Of a stretch of 43,080 nucleotides of DNA, positions 35,002 through 39,377 are shown one piece after another (position 1 is the first letter of the stretch; each line of letters opens with the position of its first letter). Both the position numbers and the translations under genes were made by a program. The notes under the pieces are model-generated. The model did no database searches and was not told the DNA's origin. It saw only the letters and a list, made by a program, of their open reading frames with translations. The stretch spans positions 1 through 43,080 of the forward strand of contig JAQTVB010000009.1 of NCBI GenBank assembly GCA_028707005.1. Reading direction: 5' to 3'. The stretch is from Patescibacteria group bacterium. GTDB taxonomy: Bacteria > Patescibacteriota > Patescibacteriia > Patescibacteriales > GWC2-42-12.

Positions 35002-35211
35002 CTAGTTCGTTTCCATTATTTGTTTTTTGATGCCTTTCAACTCCACTTTATTCATTTTTCCTATAAATTTGGAGGCGTTCAGTATTTCAATCAGCACCGG
35101 TTTTTTTGTTTTGGATAAATGAATAATAAAATTACCCAATTCCACGGAGTGGTCAATCGGATCTTTGGTTATTTCCCAGCTTAAGATGTTTGTTTCGGCG
35201 TCGTACTGCAT
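35002..35211 (-). CDS. DUF2283-like small protein
   Basis: MQYDAETNILSWEI...VELGNFIIHLSKTKKPVLIEILNASKFI resembles DUF2283. Confidence 0.6.
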   Translation of the reverse strand: MQYDAETNILSWEITKDPIDHSVELGNFIIHLSKTKKPVLIEILNASKFIGKMNKVELKGIKKQIMETN

Positions 35212-35438: not shown

Positions 35439-35654
35439 TTATTTCACCGGGTAGAAAGTTATTACTTTAACTATCCCAGCTTCTTTTTTATAAATCACTT
35501 TTATGCCTTCTTTTTCCGCGCTGAAAAGCCCTGATTTTCTGCCTTGCTTGTCCGGCGTAGCCAAGGCGTCCTCAATTTGCTCGCGCGTGAAAAAGACTTT
35601 ATGCCGGTTCAGGATATCAAATTTATTTTCGGCGTATTTGGTAAAGTAAAACAT
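35439..35654 (-). CDS. DUF4258-like protein, intact copy (putative RelE-superfamily toxin)
   Basis: MFYFTKYAENKFDILNRHKVFFTREQIEDALATP...EGIKVIYKKEAGIVKVITFYPVK. Confidence 0.6.
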   Translation of the reverse strand: MFYFTKYAENKFDILNRHKVFFTREQIEDALATPDKQGRKSGLFSAEKEGIKVIYKKEAGIVKVITFYPVK

Positions 35655-35657
35655 AAT
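35574..35657 (-). repeat. 84-bp direct repeat, copy 1 (5' end of the intact DUF4258-like gene)
   Basis: Identical over 84 bp to 36173-36256. Confidence 0.97.
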
Positions 35658-35900
35658 TTAAAGATTGTAAGTATTATCGTTTTTTCGCCCCAGCATTAAA
35701 ACAAATATTTTTTTGTCATCGTTGATTTTGTGGATAATTCTTATTTTTCCTTGGCGGACGCGATAAATGTCTTGTCGACCCTTAAGTTTCTTTATATTGA
35801 GAGCGGCAAAATTGCCCCTATCAATTTTATCAAGAATTGCTTTAGCGGTTTTTCGTTCTTCGGCGGTTAATTTTTTCAGGGCCTTGTTGATTTTATCCAT
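35658..35900 (-). CDS. RelE/ParE-type toxin
   Basis: LKKLTAEERKTAKAILDKI...LKGRQDIYRVRQGKIRIIHKINDDKKIFVLMLGRKNDNTY is RelE-like. Confidence 0.85.
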   Translation of the reverse strand: MDKINKALKKLTAEERKTAKAILDKIDRGNFAALNIKKLKGRQDIYRVRQGKIRIIHKINDDKKIFVLMLGRKNDNTYNL

Positions 35901-35902
35901 AT

Positions 35903-36115
35903 CTATAGTCGGGATAAAATTTCTTTAATATCTACGCCACCCTTTTTTATTTTAGTAAAATCAATCACTTCTTCCCACTCTTCATCCTGAATAGGAGAAA
36001 TTTTGAATAAGGGTTTGGTTTGCTTAAAGACGATGAACGATTCGCCTTTGGCAATACGATTGATATAATCAACCATATTTTCCCTTAAATTTTTTAAACC
36101 GACGATGTTTTCCAT
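35903..36115 (-). CDS. Phd/YefM-type antitoxin
   Basis: VGLKNLRENMVDYINRIAKGESFIVFKQTKPLFKISP; immediately upstream of the toxin. Confidence 0.8.
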   Translation of the reverse strand: MENIVGLKNLRENMVDYINRIAKGESFIVFKQTKPLFKISPIQDEEWEEVIDFTKIKKGGVDIKEILSRL

Positions 36116-36144
36116 GGTTTTAAGTTAATTTTTAGATTAACTTT

Positions 36145-36173
36145 AGTTTAACAAAAGATTAACTTAGTGTCAA
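36145..36173 (-). promoter_or_regulatory. Promoter of the Phd/RelE module with operator-like repeats
   Basis: Minus strand TTGACA-17 nt-TAAACT; AAGTTAATCT repeated around the -10. Confidence 0.7.
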
Positions 36174-36256
36174 ATTTGCTCGCGCGTGAAAAAGACTTTA
36201 TGCCGGTTCAGGATATCAAATTTATTTTCGGCGTATTTGGTAAAGTAAAACATAAT
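36173..36256 (-). pseudogene. 84-bp direct repeat, copy 2: duplicated 5' end of the DUF4258-like gene
   Basis: Identical to 35574-35657; encodes MFYFTKYAENKFDILNRHKVFFTREQI then TGA. Confidence 0.95.
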
Positions 36257-36263
36257 GGCGGCG

Positions 36264-36536
36264 TTATAAGTATTTATAAATATCGTGCTTTCCCACCGAA
36301 ATAAGTATTATATCGCCATTTTTTTGTCTTTTAAAAATTAAGCGGTGCTTATTCGTTATTGAAACAGACCAGAGATTAATAAGTTTACCCTTAAGCATGT
36401 GCAAACGGAGAGAGGGATGCAGGGGGTTTTCTTTAAATATTTCTATTTTTTTTACCGTTAATAATTTTAGCTCTTCAGCCAGCTTTTTGAATTGTTCCTG
36501 AAAATTCTTTGGATAATAAATGTTGGTTATTTTCAT
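36264..36536 (-). CDS. RelE/YafQ-type toxin
   Basis: YYPKNFQEQFKKLAEELKLLTVKKIEIFKENPLHPSLRLHMLKGKLINLWSVSITNKHRLIFK; overlaps antitoxin by ATGA. Confidence 0.85.
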   Translation of the reverse strand: MKITNIYYPKNFQEQFKKLAEELKLLTVKKIEIFKENPLHPSLRLHMLKGKLINLWSVSITNKHRLIFKRQKNGDIILISVGKHDIYKYL

Positions 36537-36763
36537 CTCATTAAATCAGAGACAGACTTTAATTTGTAAACTTTCCCCTTTTTATAATCCCTTTCCGCCT
36601 TCTTTGTCATTTTTAATAGCTCTTCAGCCGAGATTAGTTCGTCGTCCGCATCTAATAAGTATTGAATATAGCCGCTTACAGTAGAAAATCCTCTTTTTTC
36701 AACCCTTTTTTTTATTATTTTGGTGGCTGATTGGGGGAGCGATAACGTTAATATTTCTCGCAT
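36533..36763 (-). CDS. Ribbon-helix-helix antitoxin
   Basis: ILTLSLPQSATKIIKKRVEKRGFSTVSGYIQYLLDADD RHH-like N-terminus. Confidence 0.8.
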   Translation of the reverse strand: MREILTLSLPQSATKIIKKRVEKRGFSTVSGYIQYLLDADDELISAEELLKMTKKAERDYKKGKVYKLKSVSDLMR

Positions 36764-36789
36764 ATTTTTAATTTTTAATAATGATGGTT

Positions 36790-36820
36790 ACATTGTAATA
36801 CATCTGTATTACAATGTCAA
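36790..36820 (-). promoter_or_regulatory. Promoter/operator of the RHH/RelE module
   Basis: 13-bp-arm palindrome ACATTGTAATACA-TC-TGTATTACAATGT (36790-36817) overlaps minus-strand TTGACA-17 nt-TACAAT. Confidence 0.85.
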
Positions 36821-36823
36821 GCC

Positions 36824-36961
36824 TGTTCGCGCGTGAAAAAGATTTTATGCCGGTTTAGGATATCAAATTTAGTTCTTGTCCGCCGTAGCCCTCTTGTCCA
36901 CTAAAGTTTTAGAAATGGTGGAGGCGTAGGCGGGTCGGCGGATTTGGTAAAGTAAAGCATA
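36824..36961 (-). pseudogene. Copy 3: degenerate 5' end of a DUF4258-like gene, interrupted by a repeat
   Basis: TTCGCGCGTGAAAAAGATTTTATGCCGGTTTAGGATATCAAATTTA... then TTTGGTAAAGTAAAGCAT; interrupted at about 36872-36943 by GTCCGCCGTAGCC...GGCGGGTCGGCGGAT. Confidence 0.85.
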
Positions 36962-36966
36962 GCAGT

Positions 36967-37611
36967 TTATTTAGCGATACAGCCTTCGCCGGCCTTGCTT
37001 GAGCATTTCCCGTTAGCGACATAGTTAAGAAAAGTGCCGCCTTCATTGGTTATCGCGGTTTTACATGTTGCCTCAGAAGCAGTTGATGTATCATTGCAGG
37101 TAAGGTACATTCCTTTAGTGAAGGCACAGCAATTAGTTTGTGTGGTGCTGGAGCTCGTATTAGTGTTAGTGTTATTGACCCCCGGCACATTCGTAGTTTT
37201 TAAATTCACCAGCGCCGGGTTGACCGTGTATAAGATCAAATAAGACGTTAAGGCTAAAACCAGGCCGGTTAGGGCGGCGCCGATCCTGGCCTTGGCTTCT
37301 CCGACCTGCGTGGCGTTGCCGCCGGCGATAATCCAGAGCACGCCGCCAACCATTAAAACTATGGCGGCTAAAATGCCGACAATGCCGATGGCGTACTGAT
37401 AAATCGCTTTAATATAGTTGGCGATATTGCCGGTAGAGGTATCGGAATTGTTAAAATTATAATTCAACCCGGTAACTTGCGGAGTGAAATTAATGTTACT
37501 GGCGGCTTGACCGGGCAGGGGCAGGGCTAGTAATAATATCACGCAGAACAGCTGGATGATGAAAGTTGAGAGAAAGAGGATAAGAAAAATTTTGGGGAAA
37601 GATTTTAACAT
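36967..37611 (-). CDS. TrbC/VirB2-pilin-like membrane protein with Cys-rich C-terminus
   Basis: Two TM helices (YAIGIVGILAAIVLMVGGVLWIIAGG; ARIGAALTGLVLALTSYLILYTVNP). Start MLKSFPK at 37611 preferred because MTKTHY is encoded by the adjacent repeat. Confidence 0.7.
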   Translation of the reverse strand: MLKSFPKIFLILFLSTFIIQLFCVILLLALPLPGQAASNINFTPQVTGLNYNFNNSDTSTGNIANYIKAIYQYAIGIVGILAAIVLMVGGVLWIIAGGNATQVGEAKARIGAALTGLVLALTSYLILYTVNPALVNLKTTNVPGVNNTNTNTSSSTTQTNCCAFTKGMYLTCNDTSTASEATCKTAITNEGGTFLNYVANGKCSSKAGEGCIAK

Positions 37612-37623
37612 ATAGTGTGTTTT

Positions 37624-37725
37624 TGTCATTCTGAACGGAGCGCAGCGAAGTGAAGAATCTATAATACGGGTTCAAGCGCTTGCCGCCCTTGTATTATAGA
37701 TCCTTCGCTGACGCTCAGGATGACA
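37624..37725. repeat. Inverted-repeat element TGTCATTCTGAACG...CGCTCAGGATGACA, copy 1
   Basis: Near-identical to 38089-38185; internal GAATCTATAATACGGG / CTTGTATTATAGATC arms. Confidence 0.9.
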
Positions 37726-38080
37726 AGTTAGATTTTATATTGTTGATATATTCTTTTATCGCGTCCTTAGATATGCCGCAATCTTTAAATAATTTTTCAC
37801 TTAGGTCTGCCATTGGCGGGTTATGTTTTTTGATTAGTTCTATTTTCTTTCTTCTGATCCAGCCTTTTAATTCTTTTTCTCTGGAGATGGCTTGATCGGC
37901 ATATTGGTATTCTTCAAAATAAATCAAGTAATATAATTTATATTTTCTAGTGAACCATGAACCAAGGCTGTGTTTGTGTTCAATTGTTCTCCTGACAATA
38001 TCATTTGTAAAGCCTATGTAAAATGTAGTTCGCTCGTAGTTGGAAACAATGTAAACATAAAAATGATAATCTTTATACAT
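37715..38080 (-). CDS. GIY-YIG nuclease domain protein
   Basis: FYVYIVSNYERTTFYIGFTNDIVRRTIEHKH...YKLYYLIYFEEYQYADQAISREKELKGWIRRKKIELI. Confidence 0.92.
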   Translation of the reverse strand: MYKDYHFYVYIVSNYERTTFYIGFTNDIVRRTIEHKHSLGSWFTRKYKLYYLIYFEEYQYADQAISREKELKGWIRRKKIELIKKHNPPMADLSEKLFKDCGISKDAIKEYINNIKSNLSS

Positions 38081-38088
38081 ATTTGTTT

Positions 38089-38185
38089 ATCATTCTGAAT
38101 GAAGCGCAGCGAAGTGAAGAATCTATAATACGGGCTTAAGCACTGTCCTTGTATTATAGATCCTTCGCTGACGCTCAGGATGACA
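38089..38185. repeat. Inverted-repeat element, copy 2
   Basis: TATCATTCTGAATGAAGCGCAGCGAAGTGAAGAATCTATAATACGGG...TTGTATTATAGATCCTTCGCTGACGCTCAGGATGACA. Confidence 0.9.
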
Positions 38186-39377
38186 AATGTCCGATAAATT
38201 GCGCTTGGCCGGATTTTTTGCCGGCTTGTTTGATTATCTTTTTAACTATCTCTTTAGTGACATCGCGTCCGCCCAGGCCGACGATGAAACTATTGATGTT
38301 AGTTTTAATTTTGTCCTGGCAGACTGTTTTAATTTCCGAAGCCAGCGGCCCGATTTGGCCCAAAGAAATAGCCTTGTCTATAACCGCGATATGTTTGGCC
38401 GGTTTCAAAATTTTTAAAATTTGTTCGGATGGAAAAGGACGAAGACATTTTATTTTTAGAATGCCGATTTGCTTTGTTTTTAAAAACATCCCCAGCCCTC
38501 CCTTGTCAGGGAGGGAACTGATCGCGTCTTTGATGGTGCCGACGACCGAACCCATGGCCACGATTATGGTGTCGGGGTTGTGCGGACCCACATATTCAAT
38601 TAGACCATTGTCTATAAAATTTTTGATTTTTGATTTTTTAATTTTTAATGAAGGAAAAATTTTATTAAAATTTATATATTCCTGGTCAATAATCTTAAGG
38701 CTGGAAATCAAATCATCATGCAGTTCCTGGCGGATCTCCATATAATGCGCGGGCGTGGCCAAGGCGCCCATGGTGACCGGGTTTTCTGGGTCTAAGTATT
38801 GCCCGGGTTTGGGCGCGTAATCCGGCAAATATTTTTTTATCTCGCCGGCCGCGGGAATGGAAACCGGTTCATAAGTATGGGTCATAACATAGCCGTCGAC
38901 ATTGACCATGACCGGAATTTTTAGCTCTTCAGCCAGTTTGAAAGCCATAATGTGCATGTTGACCGCTTCCTGGTGGTTTTCCGCGAAGAGTAAAATCCAG
39001 CCCGCGTCTCTTATGGCCATGACATCTTGCTGGTCATTCCAAATATTGATCGGCGCCGAGACCGCTCGATTGGCGCAAGTCATCACCACGGGCAAGCGCA
39101 TGCCGGCAATATTAAAAATCACTTCAGCCATGAGCAAAAGGCCTTGCGAGCTAGTAGCGCTATAGACTCTAACGCCGGCGGCCGAAGCGCCGGCCACGAT
39201 GGACGCGGCCGCGAATTCTGATTCAGCGCGGATATATTCATAAGAGGCAAGGCCGTCAGCTTTAAACTTGGCCAAGTCTTCAACAATATGGGTCTGCGGC
39301 GTAATCGGATAAGCGGAAACAACCGCCGGAGCGATATTTTTTATAGTTAAAGCGATGGCGCGAGAACCTTCTAACAT
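38175..39377 (-). CDS. porA: 2-oxoacid (pyruvate-type):ferredoxin oxidoreductase alpha subunit
   Basis: GSRAIALTIKNIAPAVVSAYPITPQTHIVEDLA, SEFAAASIVAGASAAGVRVYSATSSQGLLLM. ORF opens at 39431, but MLSLSKKSQSSQESQKSQ is repeat-derived low complexity; MLEGSRAIA (39377) preferred. Confidence 0.92.
   Translation of the reverse strand: MLEGSRAIALTIKNIAPAVVSAYPITPQTHIVEDLAKFKADGLASYEYIRAESEFAAASIVAGASAAGVRVYSATSSQGLLLMAEVIFNIAGMRLPVVMTCANRAVSAPINIWNDQQDVMAIRDAGWILLFAENHQEAVNMHIMAFKLAEELKIPVMVNVDGYVMTHTYEPVSIPAAGEIKKYLPDYAPKPGQYLDPENPVTMGALATPAHYMEIRQELHDDLISSLKIIDQEYINFNKIFPSLKIKKSKIKNFIDNGLIEYVGPHNPDTIIVAMGSVVGTIKDAISSLPDKGGLGMFLKTKQIGILKIKCLRPFPSEQILKILKPAKHIAVIDKAISLGQIGPLASEIKTVCQDKIKTNINSFIVGLGGRDVTKEIVKKIIKQAGKKSGQAQFIGHLSS

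Follow-up and report, generated by a model that had tools for sequence, protein, structure and literature searches.

Organization of the array

The window analyzed here is a 43,080-nt stretch of contig JAQTVB010000009.1 from a Patescibacteria group bacterium (GCA_028707005.1; genome label G000), and all features of the array described below lie on its minus strand. Read 5' to 3', a pilin-like gene is followed by a duplicated gene 5' end (copy 3), an RHH-RelE toxin-antitoxin (TA) pair, a second duplicated 5' end (copy 2), a Phd-ParE pair, and finally the intact gene to which these copies correspond (the target), which itself begins with copy 1. A first-pass annotation made from the sequence alone had proposed this order from copy 3 onward, the unrelatedness of the two cassettes (Phd-ParE and RHH-RelE), the placement of TTGACA -35 boxes at or within a few nt of the repeat edges, and the direct adjoining of the proximal toxin's stop codon to copy 1, and each of these was borne out.

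At the upstream end of the array is a T4SS-pilin-like ORF (36967-37629), followed by the start-codon part of copy 3 (36935-36961), which a dispersed repeat of approximately 60 bp separates from the distal part of this older duplicated 5' end (about 36815-36874). The promoter of the distal cassette, TTGACA-17-TACAAT (36792-36820), has a palindromic operator-like sequence inside it and precedes a 76 aa RHH antitoxin (36533-36763; Pfam RHH_1 at only E = 0.13) overlapping the start of a 90 aa RelE/YafQ/YoeB-like toxin (36264-36536). This toxin retrieved YafQ_toxin (Pfam, E = 9e-6) and Txe/YoeB (NCBIfam, E = 1.1e-5), both sub-cut-off. Copy 2 (36173-36256) encodes a truncated ORF of 27 aa that ends at the TGA of TTGACA, and the -35 box of the proximal cassette's promoter, TTGACA-17-TAAACT (36145-36173), shares one base with the repeat edge. 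The proximal cassette consists of a 70 aa Phd/YefM-like antitoxin (35903-36115; Pfam E = 0.007, sub-threshold) and an 80 aa ParE-like toxin (35658-35900; Pfam ParE_toxin E = 1.5e-4, slightly below the curated cut-off), whose stop codon abuts copy 1 (35574-35657). Copy 1 comprises the 3 nt 5' of the ATG and the first 81 nt of the intact, 71 aa DUF4258-like target gene (35439-35654), and directly downstream of the target is a 69 aa DUF2283 gene (35002-35211; PF10049, E = 1.2e-6).

The gene order and overlap within the cassettes are typical of type II TA systems, with the toxins near but below the Pfam cut-offs and the antitoxins weaker still. The two cassettes of this array account for the only two ParE-profile matches in G000. 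Two strong sigma-70-like promoters begin at the repeat edges (positions 36820 and 36173), and the promoter scan as a whole did not exceed the expectation from shuffled sequence. The two gene pairs are all that lies between the copies; the insert contains neither a transposase nor an integrase, and the captured unit of this array encodes no recombinase. A PF00589 search likewise detected no integrase near the array, with the matches in G000 being confined to contigs C24 and C26. Farther upstream, dispersed palindromic repeats of 59 and 40 nt lie on both sides of a GIY-YIG gene (37715-38080; together 37622-38186 in the window).

The target gene

The target was found in 44 of the 111 genomes of the order, with one intact copy in each, and the DUF2283 gene follows it on the same strand in every one of the 44 order genomes checked. 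No Pfam or NCBIfam family could be assigned to the target protein, and a PDB sequence search retrieved chance matches only. The DUF4258 label given to it at first is weak by sequence, as PF14076 matched just 2 of 11 relatives, at E = 0.09, and finds better support in structure. The best Foldseek matches of the predicted fold (pLDDT 77) are mostly RelE, YoeB, YafQ, and ParE toxins, with E-values of approximately 1e-3 at best, and the predicted fold thus makes the target itself a toxin-like gene. DUF4258 is a member of the RelE/ParE superfamily (PMC11980606).

The repeat copies

As first noted, all 84 bases are the same in copies 1 and 2, and copy 3 has diverged; its identity over 36935-36961 and 36824-36874 is approximately 92%. 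Copy 3 differs from copy 1 at 6 of 72 positions, compared with at least 11 of 78 in other species. Judged from these sequences, the identity of copies 1 and 2 set against the 6/72 differences of copy 3 fits recent exchange or insertion; with one genome per species, the perfect identity up to the repeat edge may reflect either gene conversion or a recent insertion. In G001 and G003, the within-genome and between-genome distances of the 78-nt fragments overlap, so that vertical inheritance and gene conversion are indistinguishable there. No further copy of the repeat was found in the whole G000 genome. As a chance control, 200 mismatched flank pairs were searched at the threshold that detects the real repeats and yielded 0 direct repeats. 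The repeat forms no stem-loop or attC-like fold, folding no better than its shuffles (z of +1.6 and +1.1), and an Rfam search returned no match.

The insert splitting copy 3 (approximately 60 bp, 36875-36934) resembles the dispersed palindromic repeats of G000. Such a palindromic repeat breaks the older fragment after its KYA codons (AAATACGCC), and the 5' fragments in G001, G002, and G044 are broken at the same place, the genomes concerned belonging to two families. The occupied site of G044 (L064) also holds a REP-associated transposase-like gene (motif MPNHIHLI) and many copies of the palindrome CTCCATGCTGTGCATGGAG.

The same site in related genomes

Within the family, wherever the contig extends far enough, relatives share the gene order rpoC-OFORb-DUF2283-DUF4258-[site]-pilin-OFORa. 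The first-pass annotation had proposed looking for empty sites and for other cassettes at the same start codon, and relatives have both. Single-copy empty alleles exist in G005, G006, and G008, where the stop codon of the upstream gene is 4-7 nt from the target ATG, and the site is also empty in G027-G029 and G058 of the wider order. The family members G000, G001, G003, G004, and G007 have occupied sites with differing cargo: in G001 and G003, the cargo is a HEPN-MNT pair with an 82-nt duplicated target 5' end at its border, and G004 and G007 each combine an AAA-ATPase/DUF4143 gene with a Phd-ParE pair, in an order reversed from one genome to the other and with fragments of 20-24 nt. In G002 and G012, only vestiges are present at the site.

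In the wider order, cassettes occupy the same position without a 5' fragment, including Phd-ParE (G046), RHH-RelE (G052 and G056), and RelB-type (G101) cassettes, among others. A member of another family, G049, has two unrelated cassettes after two nested 36-nt fragments of the DUF4258-like gene, and both fragments carry the same altered GGG motif. The proximal Phd antitoxin of the window is 77-87% identical to the same-site antitoxins of G004, G007, and G046, where relatives of the proximal ParE toxin also occupy the site. Homologues of the distal RHH antitoxin are paired with RelE in G049, G052, G056, G105, and G108.

Several of these distributions bear on how the cassettes travel. The RelB-type antitoxin (query from G003) was found in 5 of the 111 order genomes, spread over four families, and in all five it lies at this site; for the ParE toxin, the best four matches are all at this DUF4258 site. 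The AAA cassettes of G004 and G007 are 89.3% identical at the DNA level, as compared with 74.3% for the neighboring OFORb, and by this difference a transfer of the cassette between genera at one site is probable. Together, the distributions of RelB and ParE and the identity of the AAA cassettes point to exchange via flanking homology rather than free transposition. Fragment length is constant inside a genus, but one and the same cassette has fragments of different length in different lineages. In genus g1, a single fragment end (at approximately nt 80) is common to three unrelated cassettes, which suggests, on these alignments, that the fragment edge was inherited while the cassettes were replaced.

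Apart from the complete cassettes, orphan C-terminal tails of the Phd antitoxin (KIIDFTKIKKGGVDIKEILSRL) lacking a toxin are present upstream of the target in G001, G003, G004, and G012 (L025, L026, L029, and L034). The tail in G001 and G003 is a small ORF beginning with a start codon of its own, possibly an anti-addiction remnant. In G100 (L054, 239 to 33 nt upstream of the target), the Phd antitoxin starts with MIYF, encoded by the opening codons of the target and fused in frame to the antitoxin body.

Junctions and cassette limits

The captured unit spans from the -35 box of the promoter to the stop codon of the last gene. In 7 of 9 measured junctions, the duplicated segment starts between -6 and 0 nt from the ATG, the exceptions being copy 3, which is broken by the insert of approximately 60 bp, and G007, where it starts at -16 with an older cassette end upstream. 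The segment ends no more than 7 nt from the -35 box in 8 of 9 junctions and 13 nt from it in G105. Across various genomes and targets, the duplications measure 84, 82, 82, 55, 98, 43, 37, and 30 nt by alignment, and the overall range is 20-107 nt when the 20-24 nt of G004 and G007 and the approximately 107 nt of G108 (by eye, to the -35 box) are included. The inserts have no terminal inverted repeats, and their edges differ between cassette types.

Other target genes

The first-pass annotation had confined the phenomenon to the DUF4258-like gene, which proved too narrow. Among the loci located via the RelE toxin, those of G105 and G108 have a cassette ahead of pheS and a duplicate of the pheS 5' end. 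A HEPN-MNT pair precedes uvrD in G010, where 30 nt are duplicated. The start codon is the only feature that the unrelated targets DUF4258, pheS, and uvrD have in common. At a class I tRNA synthetase gene (ileS-like, L157) and a miaB-like gene (L163), the toxin stop merges with the target ATG without any duplication. Duplications of gene 3' ends in G050 and in Kerfeldbacteria (L168 and L195) indicate that the start codon is not the sole target, and broader RelE relatives in the phylum are mostly without flanking repeats, so the duplication pattern is not universal. In L184, L189, and L205, distant repeats were judged to be unrelated or of low complexity.

Origin of the arrays

On balance, we favor homology- or microhomology-assisted capture at a recurrent gene start, followed by recombination between the resulting copies, as the reading that best suits the compared sequences. 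The start codon of the DUF4258-like/DUF2283 gene pair would repeatedly capture small addiction cassettes, the incoming DNA most likely being joined by short homology or microhomology. Each capture would leave a direct duplication of 20-107 bp of the target, here of the downstream gene's 5' end; comparison with the empty sites finds both the upstream and the downstream gene intact after capture. The duplicated 5' ends may afterwards serve RecA-type recombination, which would homogenise the copies, swap cassettes between related strains, and merge alleles into nested arrays, while old cassettes would decay to fragments. The predicted role of the cassettes is probably selfish maintenance or a stress or phage response. 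Counting against capture are the occupied sites without a 5' fragment in G046, G052, G056, and G101. Additionally, microhomology does not fully explain the exact abutment to the -35 box and the stop codon. It is possible, if unlikely, that Patescibacteria have an undescribed, perhaps enzyme-driven, insertion of promoter-to-stop cassettes at start codons that duplicates the target's first tens of bases; were this so, essential genes could safely be used as repeated landing sites.

The first-pass annotation had read the array as successive insertions of a mobile unit made up of a promoter, a TA pair, and the target 5' end. What stands of this is that unrelated cassettes have used one gene start in succession and left the gene downstream of it intact. 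That each event was a fresh insertion, or that such a unit is what moves, is not established, since the arrays can be accounted for just as well if alleles merged through homologous recombination between copies. In a separate alternative, one ancestral insertion left the 5' fragment, and all later change consists of the replacement of cassettes and of unequal homologous recombination among strains with different cassettes, with no repeated insertion needed in a genus. The shared fragment end of the three unrelated cassettes in genus g1, the altered GGG motif in both G049 fragments, and the restriction of the RelB pool to the locus all speak for such a history, yet each unrelated cassette still needs at least one joining at the -35 box and the independent pheS and uvrD cases still require insertion events, making a single ancestral insertion rather improbable as the whole account. 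Ordinary tandem duplication of a TA-DUF4258 operon would leave identical copies if recent, as copies 1 and 2 are, but is excluded by the adjacent cassettes belonging to unrelated families; an assembly artefact is excluded as well, given that the same architecture with different cargo was found in other assembled genomes, and empty sites exist. We regard either origin as exceedingly improbable.

The remaining alternatives concern the joining itself. In a double template switch (microhomology-mediated break-induced replication, MMBIR), a polymerase would exit the target at TTGA/TTT, copy the TA module, and re-enter at TTATG upstream of the exit, thus duplicating the stretch between. Candidate short overlaps do exist at left junctions (AAATATTT/GACA in G108 and AATT/TGACA in G000), and at right junctions the toxin stop and target ATG merge as ATGA or TATG in G049, G052, L157, L163, and at pheS. 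However, all 5 of the 5 genus g1 junctions have one extra base before the TTGA-like cassette start, which means that TTGA is not a clean overlap, and we consider template switching an unlikely route. A tyrosine recombinase acting in trans in an integron-like manner, with the gene 5' end as attachment site for circles of promoter, TA pair, and 5' end, would suit the precise edges, single-site reuse, shuffled cassette order, and gene-end regeneration that site-specific integration typically gives, and G000 does encode two tyrosine recombinases. These are located on other contigs, however, and the PF00589 search found one in G001 and none in G002. The repeat lacks an attC-like fold, the duplicated length varies from 20 to 107 nt, and DUF4258, pheS, and uvrD are unrelated in sequence beyond the start codon. 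The dependence of fragment length on lineage for the same cassette is also not predicted by simple circle excision and reintegration. A recombinase in trans is accordingly a rather doubtful explanation.

Comparison with known systems and significance

The first-pass annotation did not recognize the arrangement as a described integration mode, but a related one is known: insertion with long target duplication has been described for restriction-modification genes, with duplications of approximately 100 bp (PMC1643837, PMC3874152, PMC3031569), including the Helicobacter pylori cases of Nobusato et al. 2000, as they are cited in those three papers. Common to both are an addiction-type gene pair without a transposase, long direct target duplications of variable length, and an empty allele in a relative (here G005, G006, and G008). 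In contrast to the restriction-modification complex of the H. pylori cases, the cargo here consists of type II TA, HEPN-MNT, or AAA modules; the duplicated part is mostly exactly the downstream gene's 5' end, one start codon is reused to give nested arrays, and the hosts are Patescibacteria. A literature search, outside of which most subscription papers lay, found no report of TA modules, gene-start duplications, or nested arrays under insertion with long target duplication. The array suggests an extension of this mode from restriction-modification to TA genes, at gene starts and with arrays.

Super-integrons carry TA gene cassettes (PMC2654758), and the array shares with them promoter-bearing TA cassettes lined up at one site and shuffled in order between genomes. 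Unlike in integrons, there is no linked IntI and no attC-like fold, and the repeat is a neighbor's coding sequence of variable length. Merodiploid formation by natural transformation, in which recombination also yields one intact and one altered copy of a gene with repeats at their borders, involves duplications of 100-900 kb between existing long repeats (PMC3784515), unlike the short ones here. The array cassettes resemble a further kind of element in being self-contained promoter-gene units that lie between two genes which relatives have side by side. Phage morons are units of this kind; the units here are instead chromosomal TA modules, and we know of no moron described with duplicated 5' ends of a neighboring gene. 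Some ICEs and phages, for instance SXT in prfC, integrate into gene 5' ends using a self-encoded integrase and a fixed att core. The regeneration of the target's 5' end is common to both, whereas the integrase and fixed att core are features of SXT-type elements and not of the array cassettes.

The movement of chromosomal TA modules in the absence of a transposon has long called for an explanation. With empty, occupied, and vestigial sites, swapped orders, and repeat-bordered cassettes at one syntenic locus across the order, and with the independent pheS and uvrD cases, the junctions can be compared directly and the mechanism becomes testable. A further suggestion from the locus is that the start of an essential gene can serve as a safe and reusable docking site where genomes are very small.

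A scan of a 320-kb sample of G000 revealed three further genic insertions between direct repeats. An NYN-domain gene lies between 113-nt repeats of 98% identity (L259:17158-18221) and may be a further case of insertion with long target duplication, and two more gene insertions (L254:5391-6374 and L268:5185-7968) lie between 92-nt repeats of 88-90% identity.
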